NCBI RefSeq assembly: GCF_016862775.1
Contig: NZ_BONP01000007.1
Location: 62,001-126,000 of the forward strand
Origin: Cellulomonas phragmiteti
Lineage (GTDB): Bacteria > Actinomycetota > Actinomycetes > Actinomycetales > Cellulomonadaceae
Direction of reading: 5' to 3'
DNA: 64,000 nucleotides
Below, one piece after another: positions 39,152 through 50,257 of the stretch. The position numbers and the translations under genes are program-made. Below the pieces are notes generated by a model. It did not search any database. It was not told the origin of the DNA and was given only the letters and a program-made list of their open reading frames with translations. Each line of letters opens with the position of its first letter. Position 1 is the stretch's first letter.

Positions 39152-39179
39152 TTCAGAGTCCACCGGCGCGTGCCGATGG
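39152..39179 (+). promoter_or_regulatory. FliA/SigD-type promoter candidate, pilB
   Basis: TTCA (39152-39155), 16 bases, GCCGAT (39172-39177). It follows the motility-sigma pattern CTCA-N15-17-GCCGAT and resembles the three other pil promoters. Start site near 39186; a perfect AGGAGG (39211-39216) then precedes GTG 39224. Confidence 0.55.
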
Positions 39180-39223
39180 CCTCCACGGGGTCGGACTCGG
39201 CCCCGGGACGAGGAGGCGTGCGC

Positions 39224-40897
39224 GTGAAGCAGCTTGGGGAGATCCTGCTGACCGAGGGTCTGGTGACGGAGGCGCAGCTGCTGGCGGCGATCGACGAACA
39301 GGTCTCGATGGGGACGTCGCTCGGGCGCACGCTCGTCGAGCTGGGGATCCTCACGGAGTCGCAGCTGGTGCGGGCCCTGGCTGCGCAGGTCGGCATGGAG
39401 TTCGTCGACCTGGACGAGTACCCGGTGGACCGCAACGCGGTGTCGCTGGTGGCAGAGAGCCTGTGCCGGCGGCACGCCGTGCTGCCCGTGGCGCTGCGGG
39501 ACGGCGCGATCGTGCTGGCGACGGCCGACCCGGGCAACGTCGTCGCCGTCGACGACGTGCGGACGCTGTCCGGCCGCCGCGTGATCCCGGTGGTCGCGAC
39601 GTACGACAACGTGCTGCGGGCCATCGACCGGTTCTGCCGCGCGGACGGCGAGATGGAGAACCTGTCGTCGGCGTTCGTCGAGGAGACCTCGGAGCCGGAG
39701 ACCGACCTCAGCCGGATCGGTGACGTCGTCGACGACGACGCCCCGATCGTCCGGTACGTGAACCTGCTGGTGACGCAGGCGATCACCGACCGGGCGTCCG
39801 ACATCCACATCGAGCCCTCCGAGCACGACCTGCGGGTGCGGTACCGGATCGACGGCGTGCTGCACGAGACGCAGCGCTCGCCCAAGAACATCATCGGCGG
39901 GGTCATCAGCCGCGTGAAGATCATGAGCGACATCGACATCGCCGAGAAGCGCAAGCCGCAGGACGGCCGCATGTCCGTCACCCACAACGGTCGCAAGATC
40001 GACCTGCGCGTGGCGACGCTGCCGACCGTGTGGGGCGAGAAGATCGTCATGCGTATCCTCGACAACTCGACCGCGAGCCTGGACCTGCGCGACCTGTCGT
40101 TCCTCGAGCACAACTACACGACGTACCGCGAGTCGTACACCAAGCCCTACGGGATGATCCTGGTGACGGGCCCGACCGGGTCGGGCAAGTCCACGACGCT
40201 GTACGCGACGCTCAACGCGGTCTCCAAGCCGGAGATCAACGTCATCACCGTCGAGGACCCGGTCGAGTACCGGCTGCCGGGCATCAACCAGGTGCAGGTC
40301 AACCCGAAGGCGGGGCTGACGTTCGCCGCCGCGCTGCGCTCGATCCTGCGCTCGGACCCCGACGTGGTGCTGCTCGGTGAGATCCGTGACCACGAGACGG
40401 CGCAGATCGCCGTCGAGGCCTCGCTCACCGGTCACCTGGTGCTGTCGACCCTGCACACCAACGACGCCCCCTCCGCGGTGACCCGCCTCACGGAGATGGG
40501 CATCGAGCCCTTCCTCGTGGGCTCGGCGCTGGACTGCGTGGTCGCCCAGCGGCTCGCGCGGCGGCTGTGCCCGAAGTGCAAGGAGGCGTACGAGCCCACC
40601 CCGGTCGAGCTGGAGGCGGCGCAGTTCCCGTGGGTCCCCGGCGAGCCCATGCCCCAGCTGTACCGGCCCGCCGGCTGCTCGTCGTGCTCGCGCACCGGCT
40701 ACAAGGGTCGCCTCGCCCTGCACGAGGTCATGCGGGTCACCGAGGACATCGAGCGGCACGCCGTGGCGCACTCCTCGTCGGCGGACATCGGGGCGACGGC
40801 GGCCAAGCAGGGCATGCGCCGGCTGCGCGAGGACGGCTGGTACAAGGTCGCCGACGGGCAGACGTCCATCGAGGAGATCCTGCGCGTCGTCGCCTGA
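39224..40897 (+). CDS. pilB: Type IV pilus assembly ATPase PilB
   Basis: 557 residues. An MshEN/T2SSE N-terminal domain (KQLGEILLTEGLVTEAQLLAA) is followed by the GspE ATPase: Walker A GPTGSGKST (about residue 316), DVVLLGEIRD Walker B, His boxes (STLHTNDAPSAVTRL), and a four-cysteine zinc site (CPKCKEAYEP, CSSCSRTGYKG). It powers pilus extension from the cytoplasm. GTG 39224 is chosen for AGGAGG with a 7-base spacing; ATG 39176 overlaps the promoter -10. Confidence 0.95.
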   Translation: MKQLGEILLTEGLVTEAQLLAAIDEQVSMGTSLGRTLVELGILTESQLVRALAAQVGMEFVDLDEYPVDRNAVSLVAESLCRRHAVLPVALRDGAIVLATADPGNVVAVDDVRTLSGRRVIPVVATYDNVLRAIDRFCRADGEMENLSSAFVEETSEPETDLSRIGDVVDDDAPIVRYVNLLVTQAITDRASDIHIEPSEHDLRVRYRIDGVLHETQRSPKNIIGGVISRVKIMSDIDIAEKRKPQDGRMSVTHNGRKIDLRVATLPTVWGEKIVMRILDNSTASLDLRDLSFLEHNYTTYRESYTKPYGMILVTGPTGSGKSTTLYATLNAVSKPEINVITVEDPVEYRLPGINQVQVNPKAGLTFAAALRSILRSDPDVVLLGEIRDHETAQIAVEASLTGHLVLSTLHTNDAPSAVTRLTEMGIEPFLVGSALDCVVAQRLARRLCPKCKEAYEPTPVELEAAQFPWVPGEPMPQLYRPAGCSSCSRTGYKGRLALHEVMRVTEDIERHAVAHSSSADIGATAAKQGMRRLREDGWYKVADGQTSIEEILRVVA

Positions 40898-40918
40898 CGC
40901 GCACGCCCCGGCGGTGCG

Positions 40919-40947
40919 CTCAAGTCGCGCCCCGCCGGGGCCGATGG
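40919..40947 (+). promoter_or_regulatory. FliA/SigD-type promoter candidate, pilT-pilC
   Basis: CTCAAGTCG at 40919 and GCCGATGG at 40940, that is CTCA-N17-GCCGAT. The spacing is identical to the pilA and pilM sites. It sits 60 bases before the pilT GTG in the 110-base gap after pilB. Confidence 0.68.
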
Positions 40948-41007
40948 TGTAGGCGGACCCGCATCGTGCGCGGGCGTCCGTGCGTGGACCGGTTGGAGGC
41001 AGACGAC

Positions 41008-42495
41008 GTGAGTGAGACCTACAGGGCACCGTCCGGGGAGCCCACGCGGCCGCTGCCCCCGTACCGGCCAGCGGGACCCCAGACCGGGCCCGCCGCGGCG
41101 TTCGGGGGGCCGACGTACCAGCCGGTGCCGTCGCAGAGCCAGGTCCCGGTGGCGCCGCCGGCGACCGGGTACCCCGCGGTACCGGCCGGGAGCGTCCCGC
41201 CGCCGATGCACCACCCCGCACCGGCCGCCCCCCAGGTGCCGAGGCCGGCCGGTCCGCCGGCAGCGGGGCAGCCGGCCGCCGCGCCGCCGCGTCCTGCGGC
41301 CGCGAGTGGGCCGGGCCGCACGGGGACGTCCTCGGGCCGGCAGGACGGCGACATCGCGATCGACGAGGTGCTGCGGGAGATGCACCGCCTCGGTGCGTCC
41401 GACGTGCACCTGACCTCGGGGACCGCGCCGATGGTCCGCATCTCGGGTGCGCTGCGCCCTCTCGAGCAGTTCGGGGTGATGACCCCCGAGCCGCTGCGAC
41501 GCAGCCTGTACTCGTTCCTCACCCAGAAGCAGCGCGAGACCTTCGAGGCCAACCTCGAGCTCGACATCTCCTACGCCGTGCGGGGTCTGGCACGCTTCCG
41601 CGTCAACCTCTACCAGCAGCGGGAGTCGGTGGGCGCCGCCTTCCGCGTGATCCCCTACGAGATCAAGCCGCTTGAGGAGCTCGGGGTGCCTGCCTCGGTG
41701 GGGTCGTTCGCGGGCCTGCCGCGTGGTCTGGTGCTGGTCACCGGACCGACCGGCTCGGGCAAGTCGACGACGCTGGCCTCGATCATCGACCTCGCCAACC
41801 GCACGCGCGAGGACCACATCATGACGGTCGAGGACCCCATCGAGTTCCTCCACCGGCACAAGAAGTGCATCGTCAACCAGCGCGAGGTCGGCGCGGACAC
41901 GCACTCGTTCGCCAACGCGCTCAAGCACGTCCTGCGGCAGGACCCCGACATCATCCTCGTGGGGGAGATGCGCGACCTGGAGACGATCTCGGTCGCGCTG
42001 ACCGCGGCCGAGACCGGCCACCTGGTCTTCGCGACCCTGCACACCCAGGACGCCGCGCAGACCATCGACCGCATCATCGACGTCTTCCCGTCCGGCCAGC
42101 AGGCGCAGGTCCGTACCCAGCTCGCCAGCGCGATCCAAGGTGTCGTGTGCCAGACCCTTGCCAAGAAGGCGAACGGCGCCGGCCGGGTGGTGGCGACCGA
42201 GGTCATGCTCGCGACGCCCGCCATCCGCAACCTCGTGCGCGAGGGTAAGACGCACCAGATCTACTCGGCGATGCAGGCGGGCGCCGACAACGGCATGCAC
42301 ACGATGGACCAGAACCTGGCCGAGCTCGTCAAGCGCGGCAAGATCACGTACGAGGTGGGTCTGGACAAGGCGCACCACATCGAGGACTTCAACAAGCTCG
42401 TCGGACGCACCTCGCGCGTGCGCCAGGGTGCGTCCTCGACCCAGAGCTTCGGCGGGGCCACGGCGCCCGGCATCTCCAGCCTCGGAGGTTACTGA
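41008..42495 (+). CDS. pilT: Type IV pilus retraction ATPase PilT with disordered N-terminal extension
   Basis: 495 residues, about 140 longer than usual PilT. Residues 1-112 are Pro/Ala/Gly-rich and disordered. The PilT core starts DIAIDEVLREMHRLGASDVHLTSG; Walker A is GPTGSGKSTT (about residue 246), ILVGEMRDLETI is the AIRNLVRE-preceding Walker B, and AIRNLVREGKTHQI is the PilT-specific C-terminal motif. It should power pilus retraction and twitching. GTG 41008 has GGTTGGAGG about 8-16 bases upstream. Confidence 0.94.
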   Translation: MSETYRAPSGEPTRPLPPYRPAGPQTGPAAAFGGPTYQPVPSQSQVPVAPPATGYPAVPAGSVPPPMHHPAPAAPQVPRPAGPPAAGQPAAAPPRPAAASGPGRTGTSSGRQDGDIAIDEVLREMHRLGASDVHLTSGTAPMVRISGALRPLEQFGVMTPEPLRRSLYSFLTQKQRETFEANLELDISYAVRGLARFRVNLYQQRESVGAAFRVIPYEIKPLEELGVPASVGSFAGLPRGLVLVTGPTGSGKSTTLASIIDLANRTREDHIMTVEDPIEFLHRHKKCIVNQREVGADTHSFANALKHVLRQDPDIILVGEMRDLETISVALTAAETGHLVFATLHTQDAAQTIDRIIDVFPSGQQAQVRTQLASAIQGVVCQTLAKKANGAGRVVATEVMLATPAIRNLVREGKTHQIYSAMQAGADNGMHTMDQNLAELVKRGKITYEVGLDKAHHIEDFNKLVGRTSRVRQGASSTQSFGGATAPGISSLGGY

Positions 42496-43721
42496 TGGCC
42501 GTCATGCGCACGTACGAGTACGAGCTGTCGGACCGCAGCGGCAAGGTCGTCAAGGGCCGCATCGACGCGCAGAACGAGGACGCGGTCGCCAACCGCCTGC
42601 GCCAGATGGGCATGGCGCCCATCGCGATCACCGAGATCTCGACGACGGGCCTGAGCACCGAGATCACGATCCCCGGGTTCGGGGACCGCGTGAAGCTCAA
42701 GGACCTCGCCATCATGGCGCGCCAGCTCGCCACCATGATCAGCGCCGGCTTGTCCCTGCTGCGGGCGCTGACGATCCTCGCCGAGCAGACCGAGAGCAAG
42801 CCCCTCGGCAAGGCGCTGGGCACCGTGCGCAGCGACGTCGAGACGGGCGGGGCCCTGTCCGAGTCGCTCTCGAAGCACAAGGAGATCTTCCCGCCGCTGA
42901 TGATCAACATGATCCGTGCGGGCGAGGTCGGCGGGTTCCTCGAGGATGCGCTGACCTCGGTGGCGGAGAACTACGAGTCCGAGGTCAAGCTCCGCGCGCA
43001 GATCAAGTCCGCGATGACGTACCCCGTCATGGTGTTCGCGATGGCGATCCTCGCGGTCGTGGGCATGCTGCTGTTCATCGTGCCAATCTTCGAGCAGATG
43101 TTCACCGACCTCGGGGGCGCGCTGCCAGCGCCCACCCAGTTCCTCGTCTTTCTCTCGAGCATCATGAAGTGGGCGGCGCCGCTGCTGGCGGTCATCGTCG
43201 TGATCTTCTCGATTTGGTGGCGCAAGCACAAGAACGACGACGCGATCCGTTCCCGCGTGCAGCCGCTGACGATGCGGGTCCCGATCTTCGGGATGCTGTT
43301 CAAGAAGGTGGCGATCGCGCGCTTCACGCGCAACTTCGGCACGATGCTCGGCGCCGGCGTCCCGATCCTGCAGGCCCTGGACATCGTGGGCGAGACGAGC
43401 GGGAGCTACGTCATCGAGATGGCGGTCAAGGACATCCAGAACGGCGTGCGCCAAGGTCAGCCGCTCTCGTTGCCCCTGGCCAGGCACACGGTGTTCCCCC
43501 CCATGGTGGTGCAGATGATCGCCACGGGTGAGGACGCGGGCTCCCTCGAGCAGATGCTGAAGAAGATCGCCATCTTCTACGACGAGGACGTCGAGGCGAC
43601 CACGGACCAGCTGACGAGCCTCATCGAGCCGCTGATGATCGCCATCCTCGGCGTGATCATCGGCGGCATGATCATCGCCCTCTACATGCCGATCTTCTCG
43701 ATCTTCGAGCTCGTGCAGTGA
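42495..43721 (+). CDS. pilC: Type IV pilus inner membrane platform protein PilC
   Basis: 408 residues with two T2SF domains (LAIMARQLATMISAGLSLLRALTILAEQ and ARFTRNFGTMLGAGVPILQALDIVGE), each followed by membrane helices (YPVMVFAMAILAVVGMLLFIVP; LIEPLMIAILGVIIGGMIIALYMP). It forms the rotor above the PilB and PilT motors. ATG 42495 shares one base with the pilT stop. Confidence 0.96.
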   Translation: MAVMRTYEYELSDRSGKVVKGRIDAQNEDAVANRLRQMGMAPIAITEISTTGLSTEITIPGFGDRVKLKDLAIMARQLATMISAGLSLLRALTILAEQTESKPLGKALGTVRSDVETGGALSESLSKHKEIFPPLMINMIRAGEVGGFLEDALTSVAENYESEVKLRAQIKSAMTYPVMVFAMAILAVVGMLLFIVPIFEQMFTDLGGALPAPTQFLVFLSSIMKWAAPLLAVIVVIFSIWWRKHKNDDAIRSRVQPLTMRVPIFGMLFKKVAIARFTRNFGTMLGAGVPILQALDIVGETSGSYVIEMAVKDIQNGVRQGQPLSLPLARHTVFPPMVVQMIATGEDAGSLEQMLKKIAIFYDEDVEATTDQLTSLIEPLMIAILGVIIGGMIIALYMPIFSIFELVQ

Positions 43722-43770
43722 GGTGTCACCCGTCTGCTGAACGGCCGTCCGGGTGAACGTGGCCGCAGGG

Positions 43771-43799
43771 CTCAAGGCGTGGCCCGGGCATCCCGATGA
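43771..43799 (+). promoter_or_regulatory. FliA/SigD-type promoter candidate, pilA
   Basis: CTCAAGGCG at 43771 and CCCGATGA at 43792, CTCA-N17-CCCGAT. The leader to the pilA ATG is about 65 bases and contains the inverted pair GCCGGC-ctcg-GCCGGC region. The 147-base gap holds no gene. Confidence 0.68.
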
Positions 43800-43868
43800 G
43801 CAGCACGTAGCACCGAACCGCCGGCCTCGGCCGGCACCTGAAACCCGACACCGAAGGCAGGCATCACC

Positions 43869-44276
43869 ATGATTGCTCGCGTCCGCAAGGCCATGGACGA
43901 GCGCGAGAAGGGCTTCACGCTCATCGAGCTCCTCGTCGTCATCATCATCATCGGCATCCTCGCCGCGATCGCCATCCCGGCGTTCCTCAACCAGCGCCAG
44001 AACGGCTGGGCCGCCCAGGTCGAGTCCGACGTCAAGAACGCGGCCATCGCGGCCGAGTCCTACGCGGTGGGCAACAACGGGTCCTACGCGGACCTGGACG
44101 CGGCCGCGCTCACGGACAACGGCTTCCGGTCGACCGCGGACGTCACGGTCCGGGTTGAGGACGCCAACGCCGACACCTACACGCTCGTCGGCTCGCACGT
44201 CCGCCTCGGCGGCGAGACTGAGCGCTCGTGGACGTACGACAGCGCGACCGGCGTGATCGACGACTCGGACGACTGA
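43869..44276 (+). CDS. pilA: Type IV major pilin
   Basis: 135 residues. Class III signal: MIARVRKAMDEREKG|FTLIELLVV, cleaved by PilD between Gly15 and Phe16, with Glu5 of the mature protein present. The hydrophobic spine (LIELLVVIIIIGILAAIAIPAFLNQ) and the alpha-N helix (NGWAAQVESDVKNAAIAAESYAVG) are standard; the C-terminal domain is short (about 75 residues) and lacks cysteines. A purine site (gaaggcag) precedes ATG. The strong hairpin after the gene fits high pilin expression. Confidence 0.95.
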   Translation: MIARVRKAMDEREKGFTLIELLVVIIIIGILAAIAIPAFLNQRQNGWAAQVESDVKNAAIAAESYAVGNNGSYADLDAAALTDNGFRSTADVTVRVEDANADTYTLVGSHVRLGGETERSWTYDSATGVIDDSDD

Positions 44277-44297
44277 TAGGTCCGGCTAGTTCGGTTC

Positions 44298-44339
44298 CAG
44301 GGGTGTGGGGCGTCGCGCACGCGGCGCCCCACACCCCTG
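44298..44339 (+). terminator. Strong hairpin between pilA and the minor pilin operon
   Basis: CAGGGGTGTGGGGCG (44298-44312) and CGCCCCACACCCCTG (44325-44339) form a perfect 15-base stem, 21 bases after the pilA stop. It probably stabilises or ends the pilA message and lowers read-through into the minor pilins. The rest of the 159-base gap has only a GGAGG site before GTG 44436. Confidence 0.75.
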
Positions 44340-44435
44340 AGGCACACCCGCCCGGCGCGCAGGGCACCGCACGACCGGCACCACGCACGCACCACCCGCA
44401 GCACCCCTTGACACCGAGCTCCCCGGAGGCCCGCA

Positions 44436-45815
44436 GTGCGCACCTGGTGGCACCGCCTGCACCGCGTCACCCGCGACGAGGGCGGCCTGAGCCTCGTCGA
44501 GGTCCTCGTCGCGATGCTGATCTTCGCGATGGTGAGCGTGGGGCTCGCGTACTCGATGATCGGGACGCTCAACCTGACCCGCGAGGCGCGCGTGCGGGTC
44601 GTCGCGGCCAACCTCGCGGCCGACGAGATCGACCTCGCGCGTGACACGGACGACCTGTTCGGCCTGCTCGACCGGACCCGGGAGATCACGCTCAACGGGG
44701 ACGTGTTCCGCGTGCAGCGCAGCACGCAGTGGGTGTCCGACCCCGCCGCGGACTTCTCCTGCGGCGCGAGCGGCGGCGGCGGCACGCTGCGCTACAAGCG
44801 CGTCAACGTCACCGTCACGTGGGGCGGCATGCGCGCCGGTGCCGCACCCGTGCGCAGCGACACGGTCCTCAACCCCGACGACCACATCAACGACCCGACC
44901 AAGGGCACGATCCTCGTGTCGGTCCTGCGGGCCGACGGCACGGGTAACCCGAACGTCGCGATCACGGCGACCCCGTCGACCGGATCGGTCATCAGCTCCA
45001 CCGACGCCCAGGGGTGCACCTACATCCTTCGGGTCAACCCGGGGTCCTACACCATCCGCGCGCAGCGCACCGGGCACGTGAGCGACGCGCAGACGGCCAC
45101 GCCCGCGCAGACCGTGTCCGTCACGCCGGGCACCACGGCCTCGGTCGGCTTCCAGCTGGACCAGGCGGCGACGTTCGACGCGGTGCTCGCCCCGGGCGCG
45201 CCGGTCGGCACGCGGGTCCCGACCGGGACGTCGATGCCCGTGTCGATGGTCAGCACGTACGGCATCGCGACCCCGGCGCCCGTCGGCGGCGGTGGCACGC
45301 TGACACCGCGGTACTCGCTGCACCCCTTCACCTCGGGGTACCAGCCCTTCGCCGGCTCGTGCCTCTCCTCCGACCCCCGCGCCTGGCCCGAGACCGTCGA
45401 GGGAGCCACCACGTTCCGCGCCGAGCTGCCCGAGCCGGTCGCGGCAGCACCCGGCACCACGGTGACGATGCCGGTCCCGATGGGACTGGTCCAGGTCAGC
45501 GGCGGCGGCTCGGGCACCTACCTGCGGGCGGAGTCGGTGACGCCGGCGACGACCGATCCCCCCACGCCGACCTGCGCCTCGACCGTGTCGTACGCGTACG
45601 GCAGCGTCGTCCCCGCGGCCGGATCGACGGTCGTCATCGCCCTGCCCTACGGGACGTGGCGCCTGCTGCAGGGCAGCAGCACGTCCCAGACCAGCCAGCT
45701 GAACAGCACGCGCGTCACGCCTCTCGTGCTGCCGGAGCCCAGCGTGCCCCAGCGGATCACGACGACGACGGCCGGTGTCATCACGGTCGACCCGCGCACG
45801 GCGGTGGCACCGTGA
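44436..45815 (+). CDS. Large minor pilin (PilV-like) with adhesin-like C-terminal region
   Basis: 459 residues. Class III signal: cleavage after Gly17 in TRDEGG|LSLVEVLVAMLIFAMV, Glu at mature position 5. After the helix comes a long exported part: a carboxypeptidase-regulatory or Ig-like unit (ILVSVLRADGTGNPNVAITATPSTG ... ILRVNPGSYTIRAQRTGH, about residues 165-215) and a Thr/Pro/Val-rich C-terminus. The size and beta-sandwich look suit a tip adhesin. GTG 44436 has GGAGG 7-11 bases upstream. It overlaps the next gene by four bases. Confidence 0.85.
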   Translation: MRTWWHRLHRVTRDEGGLSLVEVLVAMLIFAMVSVGLAYSMIGTLNLTREARVRVVAANLAADEIDLARDTDDLFGLLDRTREITLNGDVFRVQRSTQWVSDPAADFSCGASGGGGTLRYKRVNVTVTWGGMRAGAAPVRSDTVLNPDDHINDPTKGTILVSVLRADGTGNPNVAITATPSTGSVISSTDAQGCTYILRVNPGSYTIRAQRTGHVSDAQTATPAQTVSVTPGTTASVGFQLDQAATFDAVLAPGAPVGTRVPTGTSMPVSMVSTYGIATPAPVGGGGTLTPRYSLHPFTSGYQPFAGSCLSSDPRAWPETVEGATTFRAELPEPVAAAPGTTVTMPVPMGLVQVSGGGSGTYLRAESVTPATTDPPTPTCASTVSYAYGSVVPAAGSTVVIALPYGTWRLLQGSSTSQTSQLNSTRVTPLVLPEPSVPQRITTTTAGVITVDPRTAVAP

Positions 45816-46504
45816 ACGCCCTGCGGCGCCGACTGCACGTCGCCGGGCGCGGCGACCGCGGACTGACGCTGCCGGAGCTGCTCGTCACGATGTTCCTGCT
45901 GTCGATGATCACGGTGCTCATGGTCGGCACGATCTCCGGCTTCTCCCGCGCGTTCACCCGCGACCGCGCAGCGAGCGACTCGACCATGGTGGCCGCGACG
46001 GCCATGAAGGAGGTCACGCGCGTCGTCCGCTCGGGCACCGAGCTGCGCCTGACTGGCGGTGGCGCGACCAACGCCCCGGTCTTCATCGAGGCCCGGCCCG
46101 ACACCCTGACGATGTACGCGTACGTCGACACGTCAGCGGCGGCGCCGCGACCCATCAAGGTGCGCTTCGCGATCGACGCCCAGCGGCGGCTGATCGAGAC
46201 ACGGTGGCCCGTCACCAACACGGCCGCCCCGTGGACGTTCGCGGCCATGACCAGCCCGTCGTCCAGCCGGCCCGTCGCGCGGTTCATCCCCACGACCGCG
46301 GGGCCCTTGTTCGTGTACCTCGACAAGGACGAGAACCCGCTGGTCCCCGGCGCCGGCGGGCTCACGGCCGACCAGATCAAGAACGTCGCGGCCGTGCGGG
46401 TCACGATCACCGTGCAGGGCGACATCACCGGCCGCGCCGATGCGGTCACCGTCCAGAACGCCGTCGGCATCCCCAACCTCGGCATCTCCAGAGTGAGGCC
46501 ATGA
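45812..46504 (+). CDS. Minor pilin (PilW-like)
   Basis: 230 residues. Class III signal: GRGDRG|LTLPELLVTMFLLSMITVLMVG, Gly17/Leu18 cleavage, mature Glu5 present. The C-terminal part is beta-rich and Ala/Thr-rich, ending in GDITGRADAVTVQNAVGIPNLG, similar to PilW/GspJ proteins. GTG 45812 and the stop at 46504 both overlap their neighbours, so the three minor pilin genes are coupled. Likely part of the priming tip complex. Confidence 0.85.
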   Translation: MNALRRRLHVAGRGDRGLTLPELLVTMFLLSMITVLMVGTISGFSRAFTRDRAASDSTMVAATAMKEVTRVVRSGTELRLTGGGATNAPVFIEARPDTLTMYAYVDTSAAAPRPIKVRFAIDAQRRLIETRWPVTNTAAPWTFAAMTSPSSSRPVARFIPTTAGPLFVYLDKDENPLVPGAGGLTADQIKNVAAVRVTITVQGDITGRADAVTVQNAVGIPNLGISRVRP

Positions 46505-48279
46505 TGCACATCCTCCGTCTGATCCGTACCCGCATCGACGACCGTGAACGCGGCATCGCCATGGTCATGGTCATCGGCATGACGGTCCTGCTCAGCGGGC
46601 TCGTCGTCGCCGGGATCGCCTACGGGACGGGTGCCGCCCGCCAGTCGCAGCGCGACCAGAACTGGAGCTCGGCCCTCGCCGCGGCCTATGCCGGGATCGA
46701 GGAGTACGAGAGCCGGCTCGCGAACGACCTCGGGTACTTCGCGTACGGCAACCCCGCCGCCCCTTTCAGCGCGACGAGCGCGGCCCGCCTCACGCTGCCC
46801 AGCGGTGCGAGCGCGAACCCGGCCTTCGGTCTCGGACCCTCGGGTACGTGGGCGAACGTCGCCGGCAGCGCGGGGGCGGCGCAGTTCCGGTACGAGGTCG
46901 ACAGCTCCCGCTTCTACATCGACGGCACCCTGCGCCTGCGGTCCACCGGGCGCGCCGGTGGTGAGACGCGCACGATCGTGGCCGACATCAAGCAGAAGGG
47001 CTTCATCGACTTCCTGTACTTCACGGACTACGAGGTCATGGACCCGCAGGCGCTGAACCCCACGAGCACCGCCGACTGCGCCATCCACTACTACGACGCA
47101 GCGAGCCGCTCGCACTGCAGTACCATCTTCTTCGGCGGCGCCGACGTGATCAACGGGCCGTTGCACACCAACGACGCGCTCCAGACGAACGGCCCGGCGC
47201 GGTTCAACGGCAAGGTGACCACGGCGTACAAGGCGGCCTCGGGCGCCAACTACGTCCGCAGCGGCGGGACGGCCCCGACGTTCTACATCGCGGGCGACCC
47301 GCAGAGCATCGCGACGATCGGGATGCCGGCGACGAACTCCCAGATCAAGAAGGAGACGCGGTCGGACCTGCCGGCCGAGGTCCCGGTCACCGGCTGCCTG
47401 TACACCGGCCCGACGAAGATCACCTTCCACGACAACGGTCAGATGACCGTCATCTCCCCGTGGACGAAGGCGACGAACACGACGGGAACATCCGACACGA
47501 CCGGCACGGCACCCGCGAAGTGTGGGACCCCGGGTGCGTCCGGTCTCGCGGCGAAGACGGGGTCGGTCTTCACGGGACAGCGCATCAACATCCCGCAGAA
47601 CCTTGTCGTCTACGTGCAGAACGTGCCCTCCGTGGCGGGCAACGTCAACACGACGTCGGGGTCGACGACCCCGACGGGCTCGGTGACGTGCCCCTCCGGC
47701 GGCAACGCCATCGGGTACCCCATGACGGACGAGACGGCGCCGTTCTCCGGCGCGTACGGCTGCCGCAACGGCGACGTGTTCGTGCAGGGCACCCTCAAGG
47801 GCAACATGACGATCGCGTCCGAGAACTACATCTACGTGACGGGCGACATCCGGTACAGCAACAGCGGTGAGGACATGCTCGGCCTGGTCGGCAACAACGC
47901 CGTGTGGGTCTACAACCCGATGAGGGTCACCACCTCGTGGAGCACCACGACGTACACCGCGCTCCTGTCGGGGAGCAACCGGCGGATCGACGCCGCCATC
48001 CTGTCCGTCGCGCACACGTTCATGGTGCAGAACTACAACCGGGGCAGCGCCCGCGGGACCCTGACGGTCAACGGCGCGATCGGGCAGAAGTTCCGCGGCC
48101 CGGTCGGCACGGGCTCGGGCGCGTCCATGACCACCGGCTACGGCAAGGACTACAACTACGACGAGCGCTTCCGCTACACGGCGCCGCCCAAGTTCCTGTC
48201 ACCGGTCACGACCACCTACGGTGTGAGCGTGTGGATCGAGGTGGAGCCGGCGTTCCGGCCCGACGGCAGCGTGAGCTGA
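46501..48279 (+). CDS. PilX-like pilus-cluster protein, large, lacks pilin Glu5
   Basis: 592 residues. One N-terminal helix (GIAMVMVIGMTVLLSGLVVAGIAYGTG) after a basic stretch with RG|IAMVM, a PilX-type N-terminus without Glu at position 5. The exported region has a right-handed or bactofilin-like repeated beta look (FGGADVINGPLHTNDALQTNG, VQGTLKGNMTIASENYIYVTGDIRYSNS) that resembles DUF4900-type proteins of other pilus clusters. Six or more cysteines may form disulfides. ATG 46501 overlaps the previous stop; ATG 46504 is possible. Exact role unknown; tip or base component inferred. Confidence 0.78.
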   Translation: MMHILRLIRTRIDDRERGIAMVMVIGMTVLLSGLVVAGIAYGTGAARQSQRDQNWSSALAAAYAGIEEYESRLANDLGYFAYGNPAAPFSATSAARLTLPSGASANPAFGLGPSGTWANVAGSAGAAQFRYEVDSSRFYIDGTLRLRSTGRAGGETRTIVADIKQKGFIDFLYFTDYEVMDPQALNPTSTADCAIHYYDAASRSHCSTIFFGGADVINGPLHTNDALQTNGPARFNGKVTTAYKAASGANYVRSGGTAPTFYIAGDPQSIATIGMPATNSQIKKETRSDLPAEVPVTGCLYTGPTKITFHDNGQMTVISPWTKATNTTGTSDTTGTAPAKCGTPGASGLAAKTGSVFTGQRINIPQNLVVYVQNVPSVAGNVNTTSGSTTPTGSVTCPSGGNAIGYPMTDETAPFSGAYGCRNGDVFVQGTLKGNMTIASENYIYVTGDIRYSNSGEDMLGLVGNNAVWVYNPMRVTTSWSTTTYTALLSGSNRRIDAAILSVAHTFMVQNYNRGSARGTLTVNGAIGQKFRGPVGTGSGASMTTGYGKDYNYDERFRYTAPPKFLSPVTTTYGVSVWIEVEPAFRPDGSVS

Positions 48280-48283
48280 TCGC

Positions 48284-49081
48284 GTGATCGCACCGCTGCT
48301 CGTCCTCGCGGGTGTGGTGGGGCTCGTCATCGGGTCCTTCCTCAACGTCGTCGTCTGGCGGGTCCCCCGGGGCGAGTCGGTCGTGCGGCCGCCGAGCGCG
48401 TGCCCGCGGTGCGGTCACGGGATCCGGCCCCGGGACAACGTCCCGGTGCTCGGGTGGCTGGCCCTGCGAGGGCGGTGCCGCGACTGCGGCGAGCCGATCC
48501 CCGTGCGGTACCCGCTGGTCGAGGCCGGGACCGGGGTGGCGTTCGTGGCCGCCACCGCGTGGCTGCTCTCGCGTGACGACGGCCTGTGGCTGCTGCCGGC
48601 CGTCTGGTACCTCGTGGCGGTCGGCATCGCGCTCGCGCTGATCGACCTGGACACGCACCGGCTCCCGGACGTCCTGGTGCTGCCGTCGTACGTGGTCGCG
48701 CTCGTCCTGCTCGCCGTCGCGTCCGCCGGGACCGGGCAGTGGGACGCGCTGGTGCGCGCCGGCATCGGCGGCGCCGCGCTCTGGGTCTTCTACTTCGTCC
48801 TCGTGCTCGTGTACCCCAGCGGGATGGGCTTCGGCGACGTGAAGCTCGCCGGTGTGCTGGGGATGTACCTGGCGTGGGTCGGCTGGGGCGCGCTGGTCGT
48901 CGGCGGCTTCGCGGCCTTCCTGTGTGGCGGCGTGTACGCGCTCGGCCTGCTGGTGCTGCGCCGCGCAGGCCGCAAGTCGGGCGTCCCGTTCGGCCCCTGG
49001 ATGCTCGTCGGATGCGCTGTGGGCCTCGTCGTGGGGGAGGCGCTGTGGAGCGCCTACCTCGACGCGGCGCTCGGCGCCTGA
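48284..49081 (+). CDS. pilD: Prepilin leader peptidase/N-methyltransferase PilD
   Basis: 265 residues, eight helices. The N-terminal methyltransferase-type domain has both zinc Cys pairs (CPRCGHGI, CRDCGEPI). The peptidase aspartates lie in ALIDLDTHRLPD and GMGFGDVKLAG (G-x-G-D motif). It cleaves the signals seen in the pilin genes just upstream. GTG 48284 follows the previous stop by four bases. Confidence 0.95.
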   Translation: MIAPLLVLAGVVGLVIGSFLNVVVWRVPRGESVVRPPSACPRCGHGIRPRDNVPVLGWLALRGRCRDCGEPIPVRYPLVEAGTGVAFVAATAWLLSRDDGLWLLPAVWYLVAVGIALALIDLDTHRLPDVLVLPSYVVALVLLAVASAGTGQWDALVRAGIGGAALWVFYFVLVLVYPSGMGFGDVKLAGVLGMYLAWVGWGALVVGGFAAFLCGGVYALGLLVLRRAGRKSGVPFGPWMLVGCAVGLVVGEALWSAYLDAALGA

Positions 49082-49128
49082 GACCCCGGCCTGCGCGGAC
49101 CCGCGGCACAACGGCACCCGGCGGCACG

Positions 49129-49157
49129 CTCAAGGCGGGCGACGCGGCGACCGATAC
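49129..49157 (+). promoter_or_regulatory. FliA/SigD-type promoter candidate, pilM-pilN-pilO
   Basis: CTCAAGGCG at 49129 and ACCGATAC at 49150, CTCA-N17-ACCGAT. The nine bases CTCAAGGCG are identical to the pilA site. It is 36 bases upstream of the pilM GTG, which has AAGGGA at 49181-49186. Confidence 0.68.
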
Positions 49158-49192: not shown

Positions 49193-50257
49193 GTGGGTAA
49201 GACACGTGTGATCGGCCTGGACATCGGGACCACCCATGTCCGCGCCGCGGAGCTGGAGTTCGGTAGTGGAGGGACGTCTGCGACGGCCCGCCCCCGGCTC
49301 CTCAAGCTGGGCGTCGCGCCCCTGCCCCCCGGGGCGGTGCGCGAGGGTGAGGTGGTGGAGCGGCAGACGGTCGGCAGCGTCATCAAGCGACTGTGGGCCG
49401 AGCAGAAGTTCAGCCACAAGAACGTCGTCCTGGGCATCGGCAACCAGCGGGTCGTGGTCCGTGACCTCGACCTGCCCGCCATGCCGATGGCGCAGGTGCG
49501 CTCGTCGCTGCCGTTCCAGGTGGCCGACCTCATCCCCGTGGCCGTGGACGACGCCATCCTCGACTACCTGCCCGTCGGCTCGCGGCAGGGCGACAGCGGC
49601 GAGGTCATGCAGGGCCTGCTCGTCGCGGCCACGAAGGACACGGTCACCGCCAACACCGCGGCGGTCGAGATCGCCGGCCTGCGGCCCGTCGTCGTCGACC
49701 TCGGTGCGTTCGCGTTGTCACGGGCGATCGCGCGCGGCGGGGCGCTCGACCACACCATCGCCGTGGTCGACATCGGTGCACGTGTCACGACCGTCGCGGT
49801 CGTGGCCCAGGGCGTGCCGCGCATGGTCCGCATGCTGCCCTCCGGTGGCCAGGACGTGACCGAGGCGGTCGCGGCCGCGCTGCAGATCCCGCTCGACCAG
49901 GGCGAGATGGCCAAGCGCGCGATCGGCGTGGGCCACGCGGTCCCGCCCGAGCAGGAGCGCGCCGCCGAGCAGATCGTCACCGTCGTCTCGGCGCTCGTCG
50001 AGGCCGTGCGCAACACGATCGTCTACTACTCCAGCACCCACCCGGGCGCCGGTGTCGAGCACCTCATGCTCACGGGCGGTGCCTCGCAGCTGCCGGGGCT
50101 CGGTCAGTACCTCTCGACCGCGACCCGGCTGCCGGTCAGCGGGGGGCAGCCGCTCGACAACGTCGACGTGGACCGCGCCGTCTCCTACCCGCGTCTCTCC
50201 GAGGAGCAGCACACCATGGCGATCGCCCTGGGTCTGGCGATGGGATCCGTCGCATGA
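49193..50257 (+). CDS. pilM: Type IV pilus assembly protein PilM
   Basis: 354 residues. Actin/FtsA-like fold: TRVIGLDIGTTHVRAAELE (phosphate 1), AVVDIGARVTTVAVVAQG (phosphate 2) and EHLMLTGGASQLPGLGQYL (adenosine). It is the cytoplasmic ring that links PilB/PilC to PilN. GTG 49193 is chosen for the site AAGGGA at 7-12 bases; an upstream ATG is not supported. Overlaps pilN by four bases. Confidence 0.95.
   Translation: MGKTRVIGLDIGTTHVRAAELEFGSGGTSATARPRLLKLGVAPLPPGAVREGEVVERQTVGSVIKRLWAEQKFSHKNVVLGIGNQRVVVRDLDLPAMPMAQVRSSLPFQVADLIPVAVDDAILDYLPVGSRQGDSGEVMQGLLVAATKDTVTANTAAVEIAGLRPVVVDLGAFALSRAIARGGALDHTIAVVDIGARVTTVAVVAQGVPRMVRMLPSGGQDVTEAVAAALQIPLDQGEMAKRAIGVGHAVPPEQERAAEQIVTVVSALVEAVRNTIVYYSSTHPGAGVEHLMLTGGASQLPGLGQYLSTATRLPVSGGQPLDNVDVDRAVSYPRLSEEQHTMAIALGLAMGSVA

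Follow-up and report, generated by a model that had tools for sequence, protein, structure and literature searches.

Which sigma factor transcribes the type IV pilus genes of Cellulomonas phragmiteti, and would it switch on pili and flagella together? The question is raised by the pilus cluster in a window of 64,000 nucleotides (nt; bases 62001-126000 of contig 7 in a genome of 4.15 Mb). A first-pass annotation had noted four promoter-like sites before pilB, pilT, pilA and pilM; at the last three, CTCA and the -10 hexamer were exactly 17 bases apart (N17), and at pilB TTCA was followed by 16 bases (N16). All four sites and both spacings were confirmed in the sequence. We consider it likely that the sites are promoters of the flagellar-type sigma factor WhiG, that in flagellated Cellulomonas the paralogue FliA reads a sister class with a 16-base spacer, and that WhiG can stand above FliA. 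The sites and the genes next to them are:

39152..39177, + strand: promoter-like site of pilB, variant form TTCA-N16-GCCGAT, read in the sequence; counterpart upstream of pilB in 52/54 Cellulomonas.
39224..40897, + strand: pilB, extension ATPase with an N-terminal MshE-type motif for binding cyclic di-GMP (c-di-GMP); TIGR02538 634 bits (below the cut-off of 676), NF053729 57.3 bits (cut-off 38).
40919..40945, + strand: putative pilT promoter, CTCAAGTCGCGCCCCGCCGGGGCCGAT, CTCA-N17-GCCGAT with CTCAAG, WhiG class; AAG-type N17 at the same place in 46/54 Cellulomonas.
41008..42495, + strand: pilT, retraction ATPase; TIGR01420 487 bits (cut-off 319).
42495..43721, + strand: pilC, platform protein; NF052607 383 bits, under its cut-off.
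43771..43797, + strand: putative pilA promoter, CTCAAGGCGTGGCCCGGGCATCCCGAT, CTCA-N17-CCCGAT with CTCAAG, WhiG class; counterpart within 250 nt after pilC in 23/55 Cellulomonas.
43869..44276, + strand: pilA, probable major pilin; TIGR02532 prepilin domain 35.4 bits (cut-off 16.3), 'major' being suggested by position.
49129..49155, + strand: putative pilM promoter, CTCAAGGCGGGCGACGCGGCGACCGAT, CTCA-N17-ACCGAT with CTCAAG, WhiG class; counterpart in 57/58 Cellulomonas.
49193..50257, + strand: pilM, first gene past this promoter; TIGR01175 194 bits (cut-off 133), present in 58/60 Cellulomonas.

All three N17 sites read CTCAAG (spacers are counted from CTCA). The -10 element is NCCGAT at all four sites, with G as first base in two, and is conserved in the genus. 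The distance from the end of the site to the start codon is 62 nt at pilT, 71 nt at pilA, 37 nt at pilM and 46 nt at pilB. Because pilC overlaps the end of pilT, both are probably carried on one transcript.

Promoter function, the assignment of sigma factors to promoter classes, the transcription units and the cascade are deduced from sequence, and we envisage the circuit as follows. RNA polymerase carrying WhiG would read an extended -35 element, CTCAAG, and, 17 bases after CTCA, a -10 element, NCCGAT. It would drive four pilus units, i.e. pilB, pilT-pilC, pilA with the following genes and pilM with the following genes; outside the cluster it would also drive a second pilT and further genes. 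FliA, whose gene lies near the flagellar ones in flagellated Cellulomonas, would read the N16 sister promoter without AAG and drive flagella and chemotaxis. There fliA itself would lie behind a WhiG-like 17-base site, so that WhiG can stand above FliA. The species of the window would be without the FliA branch and would have retained WhiG for its pili.

The motif, its spacing classes, its conservation and the presence or absence of sigma genes can be read directly from the genomes. Are the sites then chance matches in a GC-rich genome? With the spacer left free (14-18), the window contained the same three matches against 1.87 expected, and at least three occurred in 31/100 shuffles; the count alone is not significant. 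CTCA-N18-CCGAT also had three matches, all of them pil sites, against 0.43 expected, and at least three were reached in 0/100 shuffles. Thus, the signal lies in the fixed spacing and in the placement at gene starts. Genome-wide, CTCA-N17-NCCGAT occurred 22 times compared with once for the reversed pattern. Fifteen of the 22 matches were intergenic and at most 100 nt from a co-directional start as called by a simple in-house gene caller, including 8/8 which read CTCAAG. Across 60 Cellulomonas genomes the counts were 1435 versus 73 in the control. The fixed-spacing counts and the footprints across 54-58 genomes refute chance as the explanation, and its probability is negligible.

These footprints were obtained from the pilus regions of 57 relatives, in which 250 nt were scanned at four places for [CT]TCA-N14-19-NCCGAT. 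Judged by PilM, Cellulomonas sp. KH9 is the closest relative with a name (85%). G046 and G053, in which no PilM was found, were omitted, as were G012, G013, G037 and G051 for pilB and pilT, and G012, G037 and G051 for pilA. A site was present upstream of pilB in 52/54, of pilT in 48/54 and of pilM in 57/58 genomes, and at the pilA position after pilC in 23/55; the shuffled means were 0.3, 0.2, 0.4 and 1.1, respectively. The bases between the boxes varied among species, and the boxes, the spacing and the distance to the gene were kept (motif start to gene start mostly 62-73 nt at pilM and 67-94 nt at pilB). At pilB, 40 matches were N17 and 10 N16; at pilM, 50 were N17 and 8 N16. Excluding pilB, the AAG extension was present in 123 of 129 pilus matches and combined with N17 in 115. 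The pilB promoters (L046-L102) stand apart: most read CTCA-N17-TGCCGAT and have no AAG, and those in the clade of the window's species are TTCA-N16.

A different assumption would be that the motif is the binding site of an activator and that the housekeeping sigma factor transcribes from nearby. In its favour, the -35 element differs from the TAAA which PMC8325347 quotes, next to a -10 of GCCGAT, as the flagellar consensus. Two boxes at a fixed spacing, a conserved distance to the gene, a -10 that fits the core of this same consensus and a cognate sigma gene in the genome make an activator site highly improbable. CTCA or TTCA, not TAAA, was the -35 element at the pil sites, and a scan of nine flagellar clusters which permitted TAAA, CTAA, TTAA and CAAA returned only CTCA and TTCA. 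CTCAAG is one base removed from CTAAAG, and a CTCA...GCCGAT promoter form occurs in Actinoplanes.

Which sigma factor is encoded? The first-pass annotation had proposed a search for fliA or whiG, and one gene of this family was indeed present above the cut-off in the genome (G000:C1:219404-220081, outside the window; 257 bits, cut-off 189.6). The protein scored 278 bits against chain A of 6pfj, which we take to be Streptomyces venezuelae WhiG, and 160 bits against the best FliA entry. It fell narrowly below the cut-off of the NCBIfam WhiG equivalog (329.5 versus 343). The gene is flanked by a recombinase-like gene upstream and an M23 peptidase-like gene on the other side, followed by rpsB and tsf (names assigned by eye). 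Among the 20 whiG loci in which genes were called, most share this neighbourhood; a 21st locus, G091, has no gene call as the simple caller fails in that genome. The Streptomyces gene order of whiG and rpsB/tsf is presumably the same. In a tree, 20 WhiG rows formed one group with 100/100 support, separate from the FliA rows (a mis-trimmed row, WhiG_G087, was set aside; FliA of G217, G316 and G089 were not included). By neighbourhood and similarity the sigma factor is a WhiG orthologue. This is in line with the local synteny of whiG-like genes described in PMC4255298. In 20 loci, the stretch between 300 nt upstream and 120 nt downstream of the called whiG start contained no site for autoregulation.

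In the genus, WhiG exceeded the cut-off in 55/60 genomes, and the remaining five (G007, G013, G050, G053, G056) are drafts. A second, flagellar FliA paralogue (155-172 bits) was listed in 44/60 genomes; where closed genomes were compared, its distance to FlhA was about 22-33 kb. Near-complete FlhA was detected in 42/60, matching the distribution of FliA except in G013 and G050, which are fragmented into about 920 and 530 contigs and have FliA without FlhA. In the genome of the window neither FlhA nor the flagellar FliA paralogue was found, these being the two flagellar genes searched for individually.

Do flagellar genes share the pilus promoter? The sites upstream of the genes for flagellin, FlgB, FlbD, FliM, CheA, FlgN and receptors (names assigned by eye from protein starts) were N16 in nine flagellated Cellulomonas, with one N15. 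In ten Cellulomonas, 35 matches were obtained in 55 upstream regions of flagellar and chemotaxis genes: 33 N16, one N15 and one N17 (flgB of G058). The 181 pilus matches of the genus divided into 156 N17, 23 N16, one N15 and one N18. The difference in N17/N16 between pilus and flagellar sites gave a Fisher p of 1.6e-22 for all genomes and of 4e-11 within the same ten genomes, values which overstate independence because the genomes are related. The AAG extension was present in 124/181 pilus matches versus 1/35 flagellar matches. As flagellar and chemotaxis promoters are mostly N16 without AAG, pili and flagella would not belong to one promoter class in flagellated Cellulomonas.

This bears on the original proposal that the pilus machine is part of a single motility-sigma regulon, in which the same factor at the same promoter turns on pili and flagella together. 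One half of it stood, since a FliA/WhiG-family factor is encoded and the pilus promoters are conserved in the genus. The CTCA...CCGAT core is indeed shared within one promoter family, and WhiG may act above FliA in flagellated Cellulomonas. The other half did not fit: FlhA and flagellar FliA were not found in this genome, no flagellar gene was recognised by eye behind its 22 N17 sites (10/15 intergenic targets Pfam-scanned), and in relatives most flagellar promoters have the N16 spacing. We regard such a single regulon as improbable. A weaker form of joint control of twitching and swimming survives in flagellated Cellulomonas, where fliA is preceded by a WhiG-like N17 site.

A more serious alternative assumes a single promoter class whose spacer is loose. 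WhiG and FliA would then overlap fully, and the choice of 16 or 17 bases would tune strength or timing. It draws on pilM with CTCAAG-N16 in G001, G017, G035 and G038, on pilB with TTCA-N16 in the window's clade, on G058 with N16 at all pilus genes and on some CTCAAG-N16 pilus positions outside the genus. In addition, PMC8325347 describes pili and flagella of Actinoplanes as both read by WhiG-like sigma factors. Against a fully shared class we set the strong separation by spacing and AAG within the same genomes. Further, N16 sites, and not N17 sites, are more numerous where FliA is present: genome-wide N16 matches averaged 33.2 with FliA (n = 43) and 24.1 without (n = 16; p 5e-5), whereas N17 matches were 23.0 and 27.2, respectively (p 0.018, opposite direction; G053, 61% complete, was excluded). 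The closed sister genome G044 had no N16 excess (14 versus 15 in the control) and 35 N17 versus 1; the window genome had a small N16 excess (17 versus 8). Finally, two pilus genomes with a FliA-type factor and no WhiG, described below, had N16 only in 3/3 matches. We therefore regard a loose spacer as possible, though rather unlikely.

If WhiG and FliA read separate classes, are they connected? Upstream of fliA in Cellulomonas, [CTG]TCAAG-N17-NNCGA was present in 17/19 loci (shuffled mean 0.035), a relaxed pattern which was chosen after some of the sites had been seen. From the site to a conserved codon close to the N-terminus there are 69-99 nt, which places it near the start. Twelve of the 17 sites had exact CTCAAG and NCCGA, and the remainder had TTCAAG, GTCAAG, GACGA or GTCGA. 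The two misses were G016 (GTCAAG-N18) and G047 (none). Seven of 32 fliA loci were uncounted because the anchor gave no upstream stretch (G217, G316, G089, G007, G049, G030, G009). The simplest interpretation of this WhiG-like N17 site would be that fliA is switched on by WhiG in Cellulomonas, so that WhiG could act above FliA. With the site so close to the start (e.g. L110, L115, L116, L192, L247, L248, L253, L254, L255), the transcript is perhaps nearly leaderless.

This leads to an evolutionary extension, for which we judge the chances to be about even. An ancestral flagellar-type promoter would have split in Cellulomonas into CTCAAG-N17 for WhiG (pili and fliA) and CTCA(G/C)-N16 for FliA (flagella and chemotaxis), resulting in a hierarchical circuit. 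WhiG would switch on pili alone, or pili and then flagella, and flagella-less species would keep the upper layer.

How far does this extend beyond the genus? PilM was searched in 296 genomes of the class; 73 were positive including the window's own. From the other 72, 20 genomes were taken and their pilus regions read, the sites being counted without a gene caller. The same 20 genomes were searched for FliA/WhiG. WhiG was present in 16 (in G086 it is split in two pieces and was counted as present on that reading). CTCAAG-N17 occurred at at least one of the four pilus positions in 13 of the 16 genomes with WhiG versus none of those without, of which there are only four. The exceptions with WhiG were G123 (N16), G091 (TTCA-N15) and G113 (none, in a short stretch covering pilM only). 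In G263 and G254, with best sigma matches of 107 and 126 bits under the cut-off, no CTCAAG was present at the four positions. G254, in which one cluster was read of three PilM copies, had one TTCA-N16 match in the stretch upstream of pilB and a CTCAAG-N14 match before pilD. G274 and G210, two large genomes, encode FliA-type factors only, outside the WhiG group of the tree, and had CTCA-N16 at pilB and, in G210, also at pilT. The flagellar regions outside the genus yielded 16 matches in 30, 15 N16 and one N15. Hence, CTCAAG-N17 with WhiG and the flagellar N16 class both extend past the genus, and the fliA half of the split was seen in Cellulomonas only.

A number of observations, together with the limits already given with the class-level and fliA counts and the p values, weigh against the assignment of the pilus sites to WhiG and of the N16 class to FliA. 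The pilus-bearing drafts G007, G013, G050 and G056 keep the motif and have no WhiG above the cut-off; these are likely assembly gaps, and in G056 the C-terminal half of WhiG lies at a contig edge. The pilB site is a weaker relative of the others, without AAG in nearly all species and N16 in the window's species, the pilA site is retained in just 23/55 Cellulomonas, and pilM is N16 in eight matches. No match was found in 20/55 flagellar upstream regions of the genus. G058 (L099, L192) has N16 at four pilus genes and N17 at flgB, yet encodes both WhiG and FliA; in this apparent exchange the classes may have been swapped or are read across. At fliA the base following CGA in the -10 is A, C or G and never T, so that these elements would be weak or special. 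Outside the genus, N17 was present before fliA in 0/6 loci (G105 and G123 N18; G347 N21; G087, G210 and G274 none). CTCAAG-N16 at pilus positions of the WhiG genomes G089, G316, G087 (two) and G123 indicates that the spacer split is looser there. Lastly, the N16 excess above control persists in genomes without FliA (mean 15.9 versus 26.1 with FliA), which also speaks for the loose spacer; it may partly be coding bias, and WhiG may read some N16 sites. On account of this residual excess and of the missing fliA link outside the genus, both the assignment to WhiG and FliA and the evolutionary split were rated slightly lower.

What could distinguish 16 from 17 bases? The linker between sigma3 and sigma4 of WhiG is about ten residues longer than that of FliA and could be a spacer-measuring device. 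Of the genomes which have one WhiG copy and whose pilus cluster was scanned, G058 and G123 had the largest linker deletions, and both have N16 at pilus promoters. As a full explanation linker length was rejected: nine Cellulomonas WhiG proteins are one residue shorter (by eye) with pilM N17, and G001, G017, G035 and G038 combine a full linker with pilM N16. G020 and G051 have two WhiG copies each (L239/L240, L241/L242), one per genome with a shorter linker.

A pilus regulon under WhiG is already known in kind. According to PMC8325347, a WhiG-RsiG-c-di-GMP switch controls the type IV pili of Rubrobacter radiotolerans from flagellar-type promoters. Cellulomonas phragmiteti resembles it in the WhiG orthologue, in flagellar-type promoters in the pilus cluster and in that no FlhA or FliA was found. 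It differs in the -35 element, CTCAAG instead of TAAA, in that the genus has two promoter classes and two sigma paralogues, and in its RsiG-like protein (see below). With Actinoplanes missouriensis, as described in the same paper, Cellulomonas would share pili under a flagellar-type sigma factor; in contrast, its pili and flagella are mostly in different spacer classes with, putatively, different sigma paralogues. The Escherichia coli FliA and Bacillus subtilis SigD promoters, in the form quoted there, have the same -10 GCCGAT core; their -35 is TAAA compared with CTCA in Cellulomonas, where the targets are pili.

Streptomyces WhiG is a similar protein, as the 278 bits to chain A of 6pfj and the rpsB/tsf neighbourhood in Cellulomonas show, whereas the predicted targets in Cellulomonas are pilus genes and others, not sporulation regulators. 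Work by Kimura in 2019 and Hashiguchi in 2020 reportedly placed the zoospore pili and flagella of Actinoplanes missouriensis under FliA-family control. In the open-licence literature searched, no earlier description was found of the spacer split, of the link from WhiG to fliA or of WhiG control of Cellulomonas pili. A 2013 review (PMC4255298) states that the part of WhiG in the motility of motile simple actinobacteria had not been analysed up to then.

WhiG has been associated with sporulation in Streptomyces and with pili in Rubrobacter. In the single genus Cellulomonas, two FliA-family paralogues come with two promoter classes that differ chiefly by one base; dozens of species are concerned, and some naturally lack FliA. 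This makes the separation of regulons by paralogous sigma factors directly testable. The data suggest two motility programmes, distinct yet connected, by which pili and flagella may be run separately or in sequence.

Is WhiG under the control of RsiG and c-di-GMP, as in Rubrobacter? The RsiG-like match in the genome reached 22 bits with PF22802, under the cut-off of 27; PF22802 matches were present in 29/60 genomes of the genus and above the cut-off in two. The gene lies between crp- and nth-like genes (names by eye) in four Cellulomonas loci (L036:1222-1695, i.e. G000 contig 19, minus strand; L043, L044, L045). Its product was aligned over the first c-di-GMP motif with chain 6pfj_T, filed as AmfC protein, which we take to be S. 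venezuelae RsiG. The first motif, E(X)3S(X)2R(X)3Q(X)3D, reads R, G, R, R, D, i.e. three of five c-di-GMP contacts are replaced, on a weak alignment (E 0.24). Because of these replacements the Rubrobacter-type c-di-GMP switch may be altered in this species. Possibly, the RsiG-like proteins are an unrecognised divergent RsiG group.

Several observations concern other N17 sites and the rest of the cluster. A second pilT-like gene with a T2SSE domain (L013:1501-2625), outside the cluster, has CTCAAG-N17 about 10 nt before its called start. A LuxR-type regulator (PF00196; L008:961-1404) lies behind CTCAAG-N17, and G003 and G019 have sites much like this one (genes unchecked). Two oppositely directed N17 sites 1.5 kb apart (L020/L021), one preceding a NERD/UvrD helicase gene, have counterparts in G003 and G019 in pairs of similar spacing and direction (genes likewise unchecked). 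No GGDEF or EAL domain was present in the 10/15 intergenic N17 targets scanned with Pfam; three others are pilT, pilA and pilM, and two were unscanned. Nothing in the window matched Rfam at the gathering thresholds. Two further genes of the cluster are:

44436..45815, + strand: minor pilin-like gene, PilV-like; TIGR02523 27.8 bits (below the cut-off of 52.2).
48284..49081, + strand: probable prepilin peptidase (pilD), without NCBIfam match and named by eye from the sequence; it precedes pilM in most relatives.

The N-terminus of PilB (window 39230-39388) matches the MshE-type c-di-GMP-binding motif listed above. Because of this motif, c-di-GMP may act directly on the pilus motor.

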